From: Methylophaga nitratireducenticrescens
GTDB taxonomy: Bacteria > Pseudomonadota > Gammaproteobacteria > Nitrosococcales > Methylophagaceae
Direction: 5' to 3'
Length of the DNA: 64,000 bases
Assembly: GCF_000260985.4 (NCBI RefSeq)
Contig: NC_017857.3
Coordinates: 124,001-188,000 of the forward strand
A model generated the notes under the pieces. The model did not search any database. It saw only the letters and a list, made by a program, of their open reading frames with translations, and was not told the origin of the DNA. Position numbers and translations under genes: made by a program. Position 1 is the stretch's first letter. Each line of letters opens with the position of its first letter. This document shows, piece by piece, positions 29,457 through 36,852 of the stretch.

Positions 29457-30410
29457 TTACAACCAGCCTTTACGTTTGAAATAAAGGTATGGCGCCATGC
29501 CTGCTGCCACCATCAGACCAATGGCAAATGGATAACCGAAGCTCCAATCCAGCTCAGGCATATATTTAAAATTCATACCGTAAATACTGGCAATCAATGT
29601 TGGTGGCAGAAACACCACCGCGGCAATCGAGAACGTTTTGATGATCTGTGCCTGCTGGATATTGATAAACCCCTGAGTGGAATCCATTAAGAAATTTATC
29701 TTATCGAATAAAAATGTCGTATGCGACATCAATGTCTCCAAGTCCCGCAATATCTCATATAAGGTTTCACGGGAAGCACCCGCTTCTCGTAAGTGCCGTA
29801 ACAAGAATGAGATATCCCGTTGGGTGTCCATTAAACATAAACGGATCTTTCCGTTACTGTCTTCCAGACGCGCCAACTGACTTATGGCATCTTCCAGATC
29901 AGCACTTTCATCTTCTAAAACCAGATGACTGACACGTTCCAGCTGACGATGGATATCTTCCAGATTATCGGCATGATTTTCGACTTTTTGTTCCAACAGA
30001 GTGATCAGTAAATCCGTTGGCGTTTCACAACTCACCTGCCCACGACGAGCCCGCATCCGTAATAATCGAAAATCACTTAATTCGCCATCACGAATGGCAA
30101 TCAACCTGTCGGGCTGCAAAATAAACGCCACCGAAACCGTGTGATGTCGCCCTTCTGAATAACCGAGAAATAATGAATGCACATGCAGACCATCCTGATC
30201 GGTAAAGCACCGAGCTGAGGCCTCAATTTCTTCTACATCATCGACATCGGGTACTTCATCGCTGAACAAGGTCGCGAGTAATGCGCGTTCATCATCATCG
30301 GGCTCCAACGCATCAATCCAGTCGGCTTCTTTTAAATGATGCCCCAATACCTCGCCTTCAACTTTGATTTCCTTAATTAAGCCATGAGCAATTTTGTATA
30401 GGCGTAACAT
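29457..30410 (-). CDS. corA: CorA-family magnesium/divalent cation channel
   Basis: A 317-aa pentameric channel subunit. The large cytoplasmic N-terminal domain ends in a long charged stalk helix; then come two C-terminal membrane helices with the selectivity signature YGMNF (about 281-285) between them, followed by the acidic loop KYMPELDW. The tail ends KRKGWL, as in the CorA/ZntB superfamily. The acidic N-terminal patches ([19 protein letters not shown]) may sense divalent metal. Zinc export (ZntB) cannot be excluded, but GMN with MPELDW favours CorA. Confidence 0.88.
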
Positions 30411-30534: not shown

Positions 30535-30803
30535 CAGGGCTTGTTGATCTTTAATCTCCGCCTCTGTTGTGAGCTGAAAAAGCGTAAATCAAGGCACGTG
30601 GAGCGCCTTTTAGTAATTCTAAATAAGCGACGAATAACGCCGAGTGGCGCTTTTTCAGTCACAACCCGAGGGGCTGGGACTATTTTTGCGGTCGCCTGCG
30701 TTGTCAATCACTTATGTAGGAAGGCTACACTGCGTGCTTTCCGCCTTGTCGGACACAAAAATAGTCGCCAGCAGTGGTGGAGATTAAAGATCAATAAGCC
30801 CTG
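30535..30803. mobile_element. Nested palindromic MITE-like element, copy D (269 bp)
   Basis: The termini are inverted repeats of about 35 bp (30535-30569 and 30769-30803; 31 of 35 match) starting CAGGGCTTGTTGATC and CAGGGCTTATTGATC on opposite strands. Two further inverted pairs are nested inside: GTTGTGAGCTGAAAAAGCG (30566-30584) with CGCTTTTTCAGTCACAAC (30648-30665), and GACTATTTTTG (30678-30688) with CAAAAATAGTC (30756-30766). There is no transposase frame. It has the shape of a non-autonomous miniature element. Its right end runs 13 bp into the HEN1-like gene and supplies its stop codon. Confidence 0.78.
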
Positions 30804-31414
30804 TTAAATATCGCCATTTGAGTCGGTGAACCAAGCTGAGGATCCGCTTCACCAATTCCAGCAAATCGTACTTGATAGTCATGACGTGCAGCAACGCCCC
30901 TGGCCCATTGCTGAAATTTCTGCCGAGTCCATTCAAATTGATGATCCGGATCCCGAAACTGTCCGGGATACAGCCCATATAGCGGATTGTATTCGCAGTT
31001 AGGTGTTGTAAGTATGATTTGTTTTGGGCGCATCACTGCAAAAATATTTTGTTCAACCTTGGATAACAGCCTGGGCTCAATATGCTCAATGGTCTCAATC
31101 ATCACTGCCAGCGGGAAATGACAAAGCTCTGGAAGCGGTTCAGCATATGATGCGTTAATTAACTTTAATTGAGATGGCGTTTGCTGAAGGTATACTGCCA
31201 GTTTTTCACGCGCCTGCAGGATAGATAAACTGGATTGTTCAACACCGATAACCTGCTCAATTGGCGTTTCATTTAACAGCTGCCACAGAAAATTACCTGA
31301 TCCACAGCCTATGTCCAACAGCTGTTTGACCCCGCTTTGTTGAACTAATTTGAGGATGTGTTGATGGCGTACTTCATGCAAATCACTGATTTGGGTGTCT
31401 TGATTTGGGAACAT
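30791..31414 (-). CDS. HEN1-type RNA 2'-O-methyltransferase domain protein, stand-alone
   Basis: A 207-aa SAM methyltransferase. LDIGCGSGNF (33-42) is the SAM-binding loop. The metal-site pattern of HEN1 RNA 3'-terminal ribose 2'-O-methyltransferases is present: Glu107, Glu110 and His111 (IETIEHIEP), TTPNCEYN (136-143) and FRDPDHQFEWTR (153-164) with His158. The His111-His158 spacing (47) is close to that of the bacterial Hen1 metal ligands as I recall them (48). The N-terminal Pnkp-activating domain of bacterial Hen1 and a pnkp gene are absent. It lies 18 bp after mnmE on the same strand. The last codons and TGA fall in the terminal repeat of the element at 30535-30803. Confidence 0.75.
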   Translation of the reverse strand: MFPNQDTQISDLHEVRHQHILKLVQQSGVKQLLDIGCGSGNFLWQLLNETPIEQVIGVEQSSLSILQAREKLAVYLQQTPSQLKLINASYAEPLPELCHFPLAVMIETIEHIEPRLLSKVEQNIFAVMRPKQIILTTPNCEYNPLYGLYPGQFRDPDHQFEWTRQKFQQWARGVAARHDYQVRFAGIGEADPQLGSPTQMAIFNRAY

Positions 31415-31432: not shown

Positions 31433-32791
31433 TCATTTACCGATACAAAAACTGGAGAAGATGCGGTCTAGTAAATCTTCAGTCGTGAATGTCCCGGTAA
31501 TCTCCCCCAGAGCAGACTGAGCAATACGCAGTTCTTCAGCCAGTAATTCCCCCGCGCCCATTCCTGTCAGGCAGTCATAGCCTGCTTCAATGGCTTGTTG
31601 AGCACGCTGCAGAGCATCCAGATGCCGATGACGGGCCATAAATATTCCTTCTTCTTCCGGATGAAACCCCACCACCTCACACAAATGCTGGGTCAGCAAA
31701 TCCATCCCTTCGCCATTTTTAGCGGACAGATAGATCACAGATATACCATTTTCAAGCGTTATTTCAGCAGCATGGCCACTTTGGTCAATCTTGTTTCGAA
31801 TCAAGGTGAATGCTTTATCGCTCGGTAAAGCAGAAAGGATTTTTGTATCCTGCTCCGTCATGCCCAGCTGATCATCAATTAACAGCAGAATATGATCAGC
31901 TTGTGCCAGTTCGTTCTGCGTTCTGCGGATACCTTCCAGCTCAACGATATCACTGGTGGCATCATGCAGGCCGGCAGTATCGGAAATACGCAGTGGCAAA
32001 CCGCCCAGATGAATTTGCTCTCGTAATACATCACGCGTGGTACCGGCTACTTCAGTCACAATAGCGGCATCATGCCCCGCCAGCCGATTATGCAGACTGG
32101 ATTTGCCAGCATTGGGCTGACCAGCCAGAACCACACTGATGCCTTCACGTAATAAGCGGCCTTGTCGGGCACTGCCTTGAATGCCCGCCAGCGTTGCCAG
32201 TAGTTGCTGTAATTGTTTATCGACCTGAGCTTCACCGAGAAAATCGATTTCTTCATCAGCAAAATCAATTGAGGCTTCAACAAACATTCTTAAATAGGTC
32301 AGCTCTTGCAAGAAGTCATTAACCTTTTTGGAAAACTCCCCCTGCAACGAACGCATTGCACTACGAGCAGCCACTTCGGTTGAGCTTTCAATTAAATCTG
32401 CGACGGCTTCAGCCTGAGCCAGATCCATCTTGCCATTCAGAAATGCACGTTCAGAAAACTCTCCGGGCCTTGCCATTCTGGCACCCAATTCCACTGCTCG
32501 CTGGCATAAACGAGCCATCACCAATGGACTGCCATGCCCCTGTAATTCAATGACATCTTCACCGGTAAAGGATGCGGGTGCGGCAAAATACAACGCAATG
32601 CCGCTATCGATAATTTCTTTATCAGCTGCTCGGAAGTGGGTGAATTTCGCCTGACGGGTTTGGGCCAGTTTGCCGCAAATTTGCTCAGCTATCTGAGTAC
32701 TTTCAGGGCCGGATAAACGCACAACACCGACACCACCTCGTCCGGGCGCAGTGGCAATGGCTACGATAGTGTCGGTGTAATGTTCTGTCAT
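31433..32791 (-). CDS. mnmE: tRNA uridine-5-carboxymethylaminomethyl modification GTPase MnmE
   Basis: Works with MnmG to modify wobble U34 of several tRNAs. The 452-aa protein has the N-terminal tetrahydrofolate-binding domain (IVAIATAPGRGGVGVVRLSG), a helical domain, an inserted G domain with P-loop GQPNAGKSS (about 225), GTTRD and DTAGLHD, and the C-terminal CIGK that carries the catalytic cysteine. It is downstream of yidC on the same strand, the conserved order near dnaA. The HEN1-like gene follows 18 bp later. Confidence 0.96.
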   Translation of the reverse strand: MTEHYTDTIVAIATAPGRGGVGVVRLSGPESTQIAEQICGKLAQTRQAKFTHFRAADKEIIDSGIALYFAAPASFTGEDVIELQGHGSPLVMARLCQRAVELGARMARPGEFSERAFLNGKMDLAQAEAVADLIESSTEVAARSAMRSLQGEFSKKVNDFLQELTYLRMFVEASIDFADEEIDFLGEAQVDKQLQQLLATLAGIQGSARQGRLLREGISVVLAGQPNAGKSSLHNRLAGHDAAIVTEVAGTTRDVLREQIHLGGLPLRISDTAGLHDATSDIVELEGIRRTQNELAQADHILLLIDDQLGMTEQDTKILSALPSDKAFTLIRNKIDQSGHAAEITLENGISVIYLSAKNGEGMDLLTQHLCEVVGFHPEEEGIFMARHRHLDALQRAQQAIEAGYDCLTGMGAGELLAEELRIAQSALGEITGTFTTEDLLDRIFSSFCIGK

Positions 32792-35333: not shown

Positions 35334-35394
35334 ACCGCATTCATCCGGTCATGCAACATTATTTTACTTGCCAAAAGCCCCGCATGCAGATAAC

Positions 35395-35423
35395 TTTAGA
35401 TGCCCTGTCTGTCGCGCTATACT
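35395..35423 (+). promoter_or_regulatory. Candidate dnaA promoter
   Basis: TTTAGA (35395-35400), a 17-bp spacer and TATACT (35418-35423), about 65 bp before the dnaA GTG. The -35 is weak. The 265-bp rpmH-dnaA gap contains no TTATNCACA box on either strand that I can see. Confidence 0.5.
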
Positions 35424-35487
35424 ATCACGAAAGCCCGCAGTTATTAGTCTGTTTTCTGTAAACCTATATATTAGTCAAGGAGTTGCT

Positions 35488-36852
35488 GTGTCTTCACCCC
35501 TTTGGGAAAAATGCCTATCCCATCTCGAAGGTGATCTTTCGGCACAACAGCTGAACACATGGTTACGGCCTCTGCAAGCCATCGAAACGGAAGATAGTTT
35601 GCGCCTGTTGGCGCCAAATCCCTATGTTAAGGCCTGGGTTCATGAACAGCTTGAACAACAGATAAATGCGCTGATCAAAGGATTGACCAACGGCAACATC
35701 AATAAAATTGAAATCGAAGTCGGTACCAAAGATTCCATTTCCGCTGAAAAAACCAAACGTCGTGTCAAAACAACTGATAAAGCCCCCGCATCGATAGCAG
35801 TTTCTGAAACAGAACCTTCCCCGGCGATCGGCAGTCCGATGAACCCGTTGTTTACCTTTGATAATTATGTTGAAGGTAAATCCAATCAGATCGCCCGCGC
35901 AGCATCTTTGCATGTTGCCGAAGCACCGGGTACCTCCGGTTACAATCCTTTGTTTCTCTATGGCGGCACCGGGCTTGGCAAAACCCATTTAATGCTGGCG
36001 GTCGGCAACAAAATTCGCCAGAACAATCCTAAAGCACGAGTGATTTATTTATCCTCCGAGCGATTTGTACAGGACATGATTACCGCATTGCGCAATAACG
36101 CCATTGATCAATTCAAAGCGCATTACCGTAGTGCCGATGCATTATTAATTGATGACATCCAGTTCTTTGCCAAAAAAGAACGCTCTCAGGAAGAATTCTT
36201 TTATACCTTTAATAGCCTGCTGGAAGGCCAACGGCAAATCATTCTGACCTGTGACCGGTTTCCCAAAGAAGTCGAAAATCTGGATGAGCGTCTGCAATCT
36301 CGCCTGGGTTGGGGGTTAACCATCGCCATCGAGCCGCCAGAGCTTGAGACCCGCGTCGCGATTTTGATCAAAAAAGCGCAACAAAATCTGATTACCTTAC
36401 CGGATGATGTGGCCTTTTTTATTGCTAAACGTATTAAATCAAATGTCCGTGATTTGGAAGGTGCCTTGCAACGCGTCATGGCATTCTCGCGCTTTACTAA
36501 CCAGCCGCTGTCGATTGATATGGCTCAGGATGCATTAAAAGATCTACTGGCTTTGCACCAAAAACTGGTCACACTGGAAAGTATCCAGAAAACTGTTGCA
36601 GAATACTTCAAAATACGGGTATCGGATTTACTGGCAAAAAAACGCACGCGTTCGGTCGCCCGTCCACGACAAATAGCCATGGCGCTGGCAAAAGAGCTTA
36701 CCAGTCATAGCTTGCCGGAAATCGGTGAAGCGTTTGGTGGACGCGATCACACCACCGTTCTGCATGCTTGTCGAAAAGTGGTGGAACTGAAAGAAACTGA
36801 TAGCCGCATCGCGGAAGATTACCGTAATTTACTTCGTACTTTATCCAGCTAG
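35488..36852 (+). CDS. dnaA: Chromosomal replication initiator DnaA
   Basis: AAA+ protein that binds DnaA boxes and unwinds oriC. The start is GTG 35488, with AAGGAG five bases upstream, giving 454 aa from [20 protein letters not shown]. Domain I spans about 1-85, a variable linker about 86-115, domain III has the Walker [10 protein letters not shown] and Walker [10 protein letters not shown], and domain IV ends with the DNA-binding helix [15 protein letters not shown]. The reading frame continues upstream, but that part is not DnaA-like. dnaN follows 14 bp later. Confidence 0.97.

Follow-up and report, generated by a model that had tools for sequence, protein, structure and literature searches.

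The locus and its genes

The window analysed here is a stretch of 64,000 nucleotides from the genome of Methylophaga nitratireducenticrescens (contig NC_017857.3, positions 124,001 to 188,000). On its minus strand, an open reading frame (ORF) running from 31414 down to 30791, with an ATG start and a TGA stop, encodes a protein of 207 amino acids related to the methyltransferase Hen1; across 30791-31414, the plus strand is interrupted by several stops. The original prediction had named this ORF without a strand and had placed it directly behind mnmE. Both the ORF and its position are confirmed: the two genes lie on the same strand, separated by 18 nt, and are probably carried on one transcript. 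They belong to a set of minus-strand genes that includes yidC, mnmE, hen1, corA, and a glyoxalase-family gene. The features of the locus are as follows:

29457 to 30410, minus strand: corA, the gene found directly behind mnmE in two relatives without hen1 (loci L026 and L027)
30535 to 30803, unstranded: multi-copy short repeat of 269 bp between hen1 and corA, with inverted ends of 35 nt that are 89% complementary
30791 to 31414, minus strand: hen1-like gene, methyltransferase core only (ORF, profile, PDB sequence, fold, and alignment)
31433 to 32791, minus strand: mnmE, directly upstream of hen1 (NF003661, over its cut-off)
35368 to 36852, strand opposite to hen1: dnaA

The right arm of the repeat supplies the final codons and the stop of hen1. 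A query of 296 bp found 76 matching places in the same genome, 18 of them nearly full length (the copy of the window included), and the element is therefore a multi-copy, MITE-like repeat.

Assignment to the Hen1 family

The three motifs from which the family had been predicted are found in the translation at exactly the expected residues, with ETIEH at 107-111, TTPNCEYN at 136-143, and FRDPDHQFEWTR at 153-164. The protein matches the NCBIfam family bacter_Hen1 (TIGR04074) with 194.3 bits (E 2.7e-57), the runner-up family reaches 1.3e-06, and the profile search did not place the protein elsewhere. The match spans positions 261 to 462 of the 462 in the profile, which bears out the claim that the methyltransferase core stands alone. 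Its 194 bits fall below the whole-protein cut-off of 340 bits because the N-terminal part is missing from the window protein. Among PDB sequences, the top eight matches are all Hen1, HENMT1, or HEN1 entries (E from 1.2e-40 to 1.1e-10) and the next entry follows at 0.0011, the Hen1 methyltransferase domain outscoring other methyltransferases over this core part. Judged by its sequence, the window protein is a Hen1 methyltransferase core without the N-terminal ligase-activating domain.

An AlphaFold model (mean pLDDT 91.6), for which 46 relatives were used besides the window protein, was searched with VIA-align. The seven best chains belong to Pnkp-type bacterial Hen1, plant HEN1, and human HENMT1, with Z values from 24.5 to 26.6: 26.6 for 3jwh (rmsd 2.1, 188 aligned residues, 38% identity), 26.0 for plant HEN1 3htx, and 24.8 for human 5wy0. 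The best non-Hen1 chain has a Z of 18.3, and two chains of the Pnkp1-Rnl-Hen1 system, with 19.2 and 18.6, lie within 1 of it. The model thus has the Hen1 fold, and its predicted core belongs clearly to the Pnkp-type and eukaryotic kind of Hen1. A chance ORF or a wrong family is ruled out by the profile, PDB sequence, and fold matches.

Conservation of the metal site and residues of the core-only proteins

We took the list of HEN1 metal ligands from an excerpt of PMC10781085, which gives Glu796, Glu799, His800, and His860 for the plant enzyme. The matching residues of the window protein are Glu107, Glu110, His111, and His158, and in our alignment they are invariant in all 89 core-only rows and in the 12 rows taken as full-length. 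The same holds for Asn139, Asn143, Arg154, Phe160, Glu161, and Trp162 (89/89 and 12/12). The HEN1 metal site recognised in the original prediction is therefore intact in the window protein, and a search among its relatives for the loss of any of the four ligands found none.

Other positions separate the core-only proteins from the rest. Residue 108 is Thr in 88 of the 89 core-only rows and Val in all 12 others, residue 90 is Tyr in 84 and Leu in all 12 others, Gly173 is present in 86, and a deletion of one residue after residue 146 is common to all 89. Such subfamily-specific changes beside the site, Thr108 for example, count against the function proposed below and could reflect another substrate. 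The human enzyme requires an FxPP motif ahead of the core for full activity, according to an excerpt of PMC10781085. This motif was found in none of the 80 core-only proteins at the named loci described below (the best 80 of 260), a further point against the proposed function; it is also absent from three of nine full-length bacterial loci, the only ones where the segment could be located.

Phylogeny, distribution, and selection

Our tree comprises 102 rows, namely 89 core-only proteins (two of which, L053 and L072, have an identical sequence), 12 proteins taken as full-length, and one human HENMT1. Among the 12, the two rows from the PDB each cover the methyltransferase domain of a full-length Hen1, and the Hymenobacter row (L157), which carries no annotation and no more than 142 open residues ahead of the core, is full-length only tentatively. 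A branch supported by 100/99, and recovered in 100% of 200 bootstrap trees, sets all core-only rows apart from the others; the tree is midpoint-rooted, its single eukaryotic row stands on a very long branch, and the order of core-only and full-length forms is not readable from it. Alkalimonas and Lacimicrobium, members of other families, share a group with Methylophaga (100/98), a placement that would fit gene transfer.

The gene is distributed patchily. Within our Methylophaga sample, it occurs in 5 of 23 genomes, that of the window included; weak matches in seven further genomes of the sample (ten places, E 3.5e-5 to 9.8e-4) were taken as ordinary methyltransferases and set aside. At the level of the class, 9 of 370 sampled genomes match at E up to 1e-12, again with that of the window included, and the other eight consist of seven with core-only proteins and one with a full-length protein (G349). 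One of these seven, G248, has a frame broken in its C-terminal part: at its locus (L060, 6768-8045) the hen1 frame leaves the Hen1 reading C-terminally and runs into other sequence, being either broken or misassembled. For the phylum, the bacter_Hen1 model matches 10 of 397 sampled genomes at E up to 1e-25, five of them full-length, over nearly the whole profile, and five core-only (including our organism), from position 252-262 on; the model also matched in one of 14 control genomes. In Marinobacter, the gene is present in 31 of 112 genomes; one of them, G818, is Marinobacter salarius, its match occupying the same place as that of L093. With such a patchy occurrence (5/23 in Methylophaga and 31/112 in Marinobacter), hen1 is therefore dispensable, which also counts against the proposed function.

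Among named genomes, two peptide patterns retrieved 260 relatives, from which the best 80 were chosen by similarity to the window protein, so that the list is biased. All 80 are taken as core-only, since in each of them the core begins no further than 100 residues into the longest frame. Their hosts are Methylophaga, Alkalimonas, Lacimicrobium, Saccharospirillum, Marinobacter, Halomonas and relatives, Thiohalophilus, Thioalkalivibrio, Haliea, Alcanivorax, Wenzhouxiangella, and others; going by the genus names alone, our impression is of marine and salt-loving organisms.

Between Methylophaga genomes, the dN/dS of hen1 ranges from 0.05 to 0.17 in the nine of ten pairs for which it was computable, and the three pairs with a synonymous divergence under 0.5 have values of 0.09, 0.15, and 0.17. 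For mnmE, the values are 0.03-0.06 over ten pairs. The hen1 gene is maintained under purifying selection and evolves faster than mnmE. From this comparison of sequences, we conclude that the window gene is not a one-off: it belongs to a branch of Hen1 that is distinct, maintained, and patchy in its distribution.

Genomic neighbourhoods

The position next to mnmE had been read as a hint of a tRNA-related role, to be checked by its conservation in related genomes. We found mnmE in 22 of 24 Methylophaga genomes (two are without it), and hen1 follows it at five of these 22 loci, one of the 22 (L042) ending inside mnmE. All five carriers of hen1 have it behind mnmE, and the gene order of the window is kept in the other four. 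Two loci have corA directly after mnmE and no hen1, namely L026 (G018, 82% complete) and L027 (G008, 94% complete), and the remaining ones have other genes there. The placement of hen1 behind mnmE in Methylophaga is a gain in one clade or a loss in its sisters. Outside this one clade, hen1 adjoins other genes, and the hint does not hold up. We rejected a functional pairing with mnmE, since few loci share it and the neighbours differ elsewhere; as far as our data show, the arrangement is a lineage accident, limited to a single clade of Methylophaga.

In the flanks fetched for the best 80 of the 260 named loci, with crude ORF calling, no cluster of neighbours is shared by more than 26 loci. This largest set has a Na/H-exchanger protein with a TrkA_N domain beside hen1 (25 Marinobacter and one Oleiphilaceae, with Pfam run on one). 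An aldehyde dehydrogenase cluster accompanies hen1 at 17 loci of Halomonas and relatives (Pfam on one). A SulP transporter plus a universal stress protein (Usp) is found in G391 and G284 (by Pfam) and on a Comamonas plasmid (by annotation), while an aldose-1-epimerase-family gene is the neighbour in Thiohalophilus and Thioalkalivibrio (by Pfam) and, as recognised by eye, in G328 and G248.

Two of these settings are worth describing. On the plasmid of Comamonas sp. C11 (L061, 3609-12788), the core-only hen1 lies within a row of annotated genes, in the order SulP transporter, universal stress protein, hypothetical protein, TraR/DksA-type zinc finger protein, hen1, cyclopropane fatty acid synthase, release factor 3, and diguanylate cyclase. 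At many Marinobacter loci (L071, L087, L091, and others) with the exchanger protein beside hen1, a DinB/FGE-sulfatase-domain protein, which we take to be of the ergothioneine or selenoneine synthase type, and another methyltransferase stand opposite hen1. The Comamonas relative is annotated merely as a methyltransferase domain-containing protein; with such vague annotation, and with a score under the NCBIfam cut-off as for the window protein, proteins of this kind are easily overlooked.

Searches for RNA repair and small-RNA partners

No pnkp was found with the Pnkp model (TIGR04075) in the single-contig genome of our organism (3.135 Mb). Its sole match has 34 bits against a cut-off of 750, covers the phosphatase region, and is a calcineurin-like phosphoesterase according to Pfam; matches under the cut-off also arise in 8 of 14 control genomes. 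The PNKP_ligase model (PF16542), from which Rnl may be too diverged, has no match in this genome either. The earlier observation that no pnkp accompanies the gene thus extends to the whole genome, and the family evidence together with this result bears out a Hen1 core outside a Pnkp system.

The same model separates the two kinds of genome. Pnkp is over the cut-off in all five genomes with a full-length Hen1, where pnkp and hen1 share a contig and lie within 1 kb, and in none of 44 core-only genomes. These counts come from two sets, the first with 0/12 core-only and 1/1 full-length and the second, taken at E up to 1e-20 only, with 0/32 and 4/4. Under the cut-off, the phosphatase region is matched in all 12 core-only genomes of the first set (29-45 bits) and in all 31 Marinobacter genomes (78-85 bits), with no match in G636. 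Weak matches to the kinase region occur in 4 of the 12 core-only genomes, inside frames of 531-582 amino acids, and two very weak matches in core-only genomes fall near profile positions 367-411.

RtcB is absent from the genome of our organism and from its four hen1-bearing congeners. Among 16 core-only genomes examined, it is whole-length in just four and fragmentary in two more, and we rejected a link to RtcB on these grounds. A link to Argonaute was likewise rejected: Piwi (PF02171) has no match in our organism, is found in 0 of 20 core-only genomes, and is present in one of 14 controls (M. jannaschii).

Proposed function

In Hen1 chemistry, both hydroxyls (2' and 3') of the terminal nucleotide are bound by a metal, and the 2'-O receives a methyl group from SAM. 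We consider it likely that the window protein is a SAM- and metal-dependent RNA 3'-terminal ribose 2'-O-methyltransferase of the Hen1 family, which acts alone or with an unrecognised partner and outside Pnkp-type repair. Glu107, Glu110, His111, and His158 would hold Mn2+ or Mg2+, which would bind the 2'- and 3'-hydroxyls of the terminal nucleotide, and SAM at the DIGCGSG loop would methylate the 2'-O of the RNA end. Excerpts of PMC10781085 report that the isolated methyltransferase regions of the plant and human proteins are active, so that a bare core can be an enzyme, and that bacterial Hen1 takes RNA of 12-24 nt with no sequence preference except for a 3'-terminal G.

RNA cut by a ribotoxin mostly ends in a 2',3'-cyclic phosphate (excerpt of PMC4411300). 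Since we recognised no end-healing enzyme, RNAs that already carry a 3'-OH are the likely substrates, and tRNA halves ending in a cyclic phosphate would not be used directly if the enzyme requires a free 3'-OH. The targets would most likely be RNAs that already end in 2'-OH and 3'-OH rather than fresh ribotoxin cuts; the candidates include products of RNase E, RNase P, or exonucleases, terminated small RNAs, and tRNA ends. The methyl cap may shield these ends from 3' exonucleases and tailing, or may block their further processing.

Four other explanations deserve consideration. The protein could still serve repair in trans, its healing and ligase partners lying elsewhere in the genome and having diverged beyond recognition; the Pnkp1-Rnl-Hen1 system offers a parallel. 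There, Hen1 is encoded far from Pnkp1 and Rnl, and Rnl is only ~20% identical to the Pnkp ligase (excerpts of PMC4411300), so that a PNKP_ligase search could miss it; the RtcB genes and fragments of some core-only genomes and the partial Pnkp matches, to the phosphatase region in nearly all and to the kinase region in 4 of 12, point the same way. Nevertheless, no Pnkp reaches the cut-off in any of the 44 core-only genomes, and our organism has neither a PNKP_ligase match nor, like its four congeners, an RtcB, which makes repair in trans unlikely. A small-molecule methyltransferase that merely resembles Hen1 is less probable still. The strongest link of HEN1 is to the UbiG family (excerpt of PMC1397878), the core-only proteins have residues of their own near the site, and, in other genera, several of the genes beside hen1 have transport or metabolic roles; on the other side, the four ligands and the neighbouring motif residues that we checked are invariant, and the profile and fold favour Hen1 widely.

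We give little credence to a helper of MnmE that methylates tRNAs or tRNA fragments tied to wobble-uridine modification. The common strand, the gap of 18 nt, and the constant position in the five hen1-bearing Methylophaga agree with it, but only those five of 22 loci have the arrangement, and elsewhere the gene lies by an antiporter with TrkA_N, SulP plus Usp, a member of the aldose-epimerase family, or aldehyde dehydrogenase. Hardly any weight is left for a decaying fragment of a full-length Hen1 after the loss of Pnkp. The C-terminally cut frame of G248, together with another C-terminal piece that contains a stop and lies at a different place, would suit such decay; it was rejected because the tree places the core-only proteins in one branch across many genera, the dN/dS values indicate purifying selection in Methylophaga, and the site is kept invariant.

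Comparison with known systems

In our literature search, which covered titles and the beginnings of abstracts and reached subscription journals poorly, the matches listed contain no description of core-only Hen1 in bacteria. An excerpt of PMC1397878 (2006) mentions short bacterial forms, in the sense of lacking the plant extension, in Clostridium, Streptococcus, Nostoc, Anabaena, and Kineococcus. The chemistry is already known, and the novelty lies in the branch and its lack of a repair system.

The phage search gave four distant matches. The Hen1-like proteins of Xanthomonas phage XacN1 and Vibrio phage RYC have about 25% identity over 77% of the protein. In XacN1, the ORF ahead of the Hen1-like one encodes a PNKP (excerpt of PMC5852040). 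In RYC (L161, 2248-4401), the Hen1-like stretch lies inside a protein of 717 amino acids annotated as a polynucleotide kinase, which suggests a kinase-methyltransferase fusion. Two peptide patterns from the Methylophaga alignment, whose reach is limited to near kin, gave 118 matches in viral contigs and no relative among them. The plasmid search returned 25 records, 14 with an annotated Hen1 under the match. Seven of the 25 (H1, H2, H6, H9, H11, H19, and H20) were examined more closely, and H20, which comes from an O-antigen locus of E. coli, was set aside because it is a different methyltransferase. On plasmid P2 of Deinococcus gobiensis (L156, 4609-6314), two nucleotidyltransferase-domain genes lie between a full-length hen1 and pnkp, a set that is possibly an extended repair cassette.

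In the bacterial literature considered here, Hen1 works within an RNA repair machine, and an excerpt of PMC4411300 says that the pnkp and hen1 of this system always share an operon. With this Pnkp-type Hen1 (3jwh, 3jwg; TIGR04074), the window protein shares the core, the metal ligands, and the fold, at 38% identity to 3jwh. It differs in having no N-terminal ligase-activating domain and no pnkp over the cut-off in its genome, and in belonging to a separate branch, marked by Thr108 and further residues of its subfamily. The Pnkp1-Rnl-Hen1 system (4xrp) resembles it in its methyltransferase fold and in having hen1 away from its partners (excerpt of PMC4411300), but its Hen1 is distant (24% identity, Z 19.2) and carries an N-terminal domain, and our organism has no ligase match.

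The core and the four metal ligands are also common to the window protein and the eukaryotic HEN1/HENMT1 (3htx, 5wy0, 4xcx), and eukaryotic HEN1 acts on small RNAs outside RNA repair (excerpt of PMC10781085). In contrast to the eukaryotic enzymes, the core-only proteins have no extra RNA-binding domains, no FxPP (80/80), and no Piwi match (20/20 genomes). A coherent branch without a ligase-activating domain or a recognisable Pnkp means that bacterial 3'-terminal RNA methylation may have a role beyond repair. More tentatively, and with somewhat more doubt than confidence, we propose that this branch caps the 3' ends of cellular RNAs outside repair, as a bacterial counterpart of plant and animal HEN1 on small RNAs, and that it has spread by gene transfer between mainly marine and salt-loving gammaproteobacteria.
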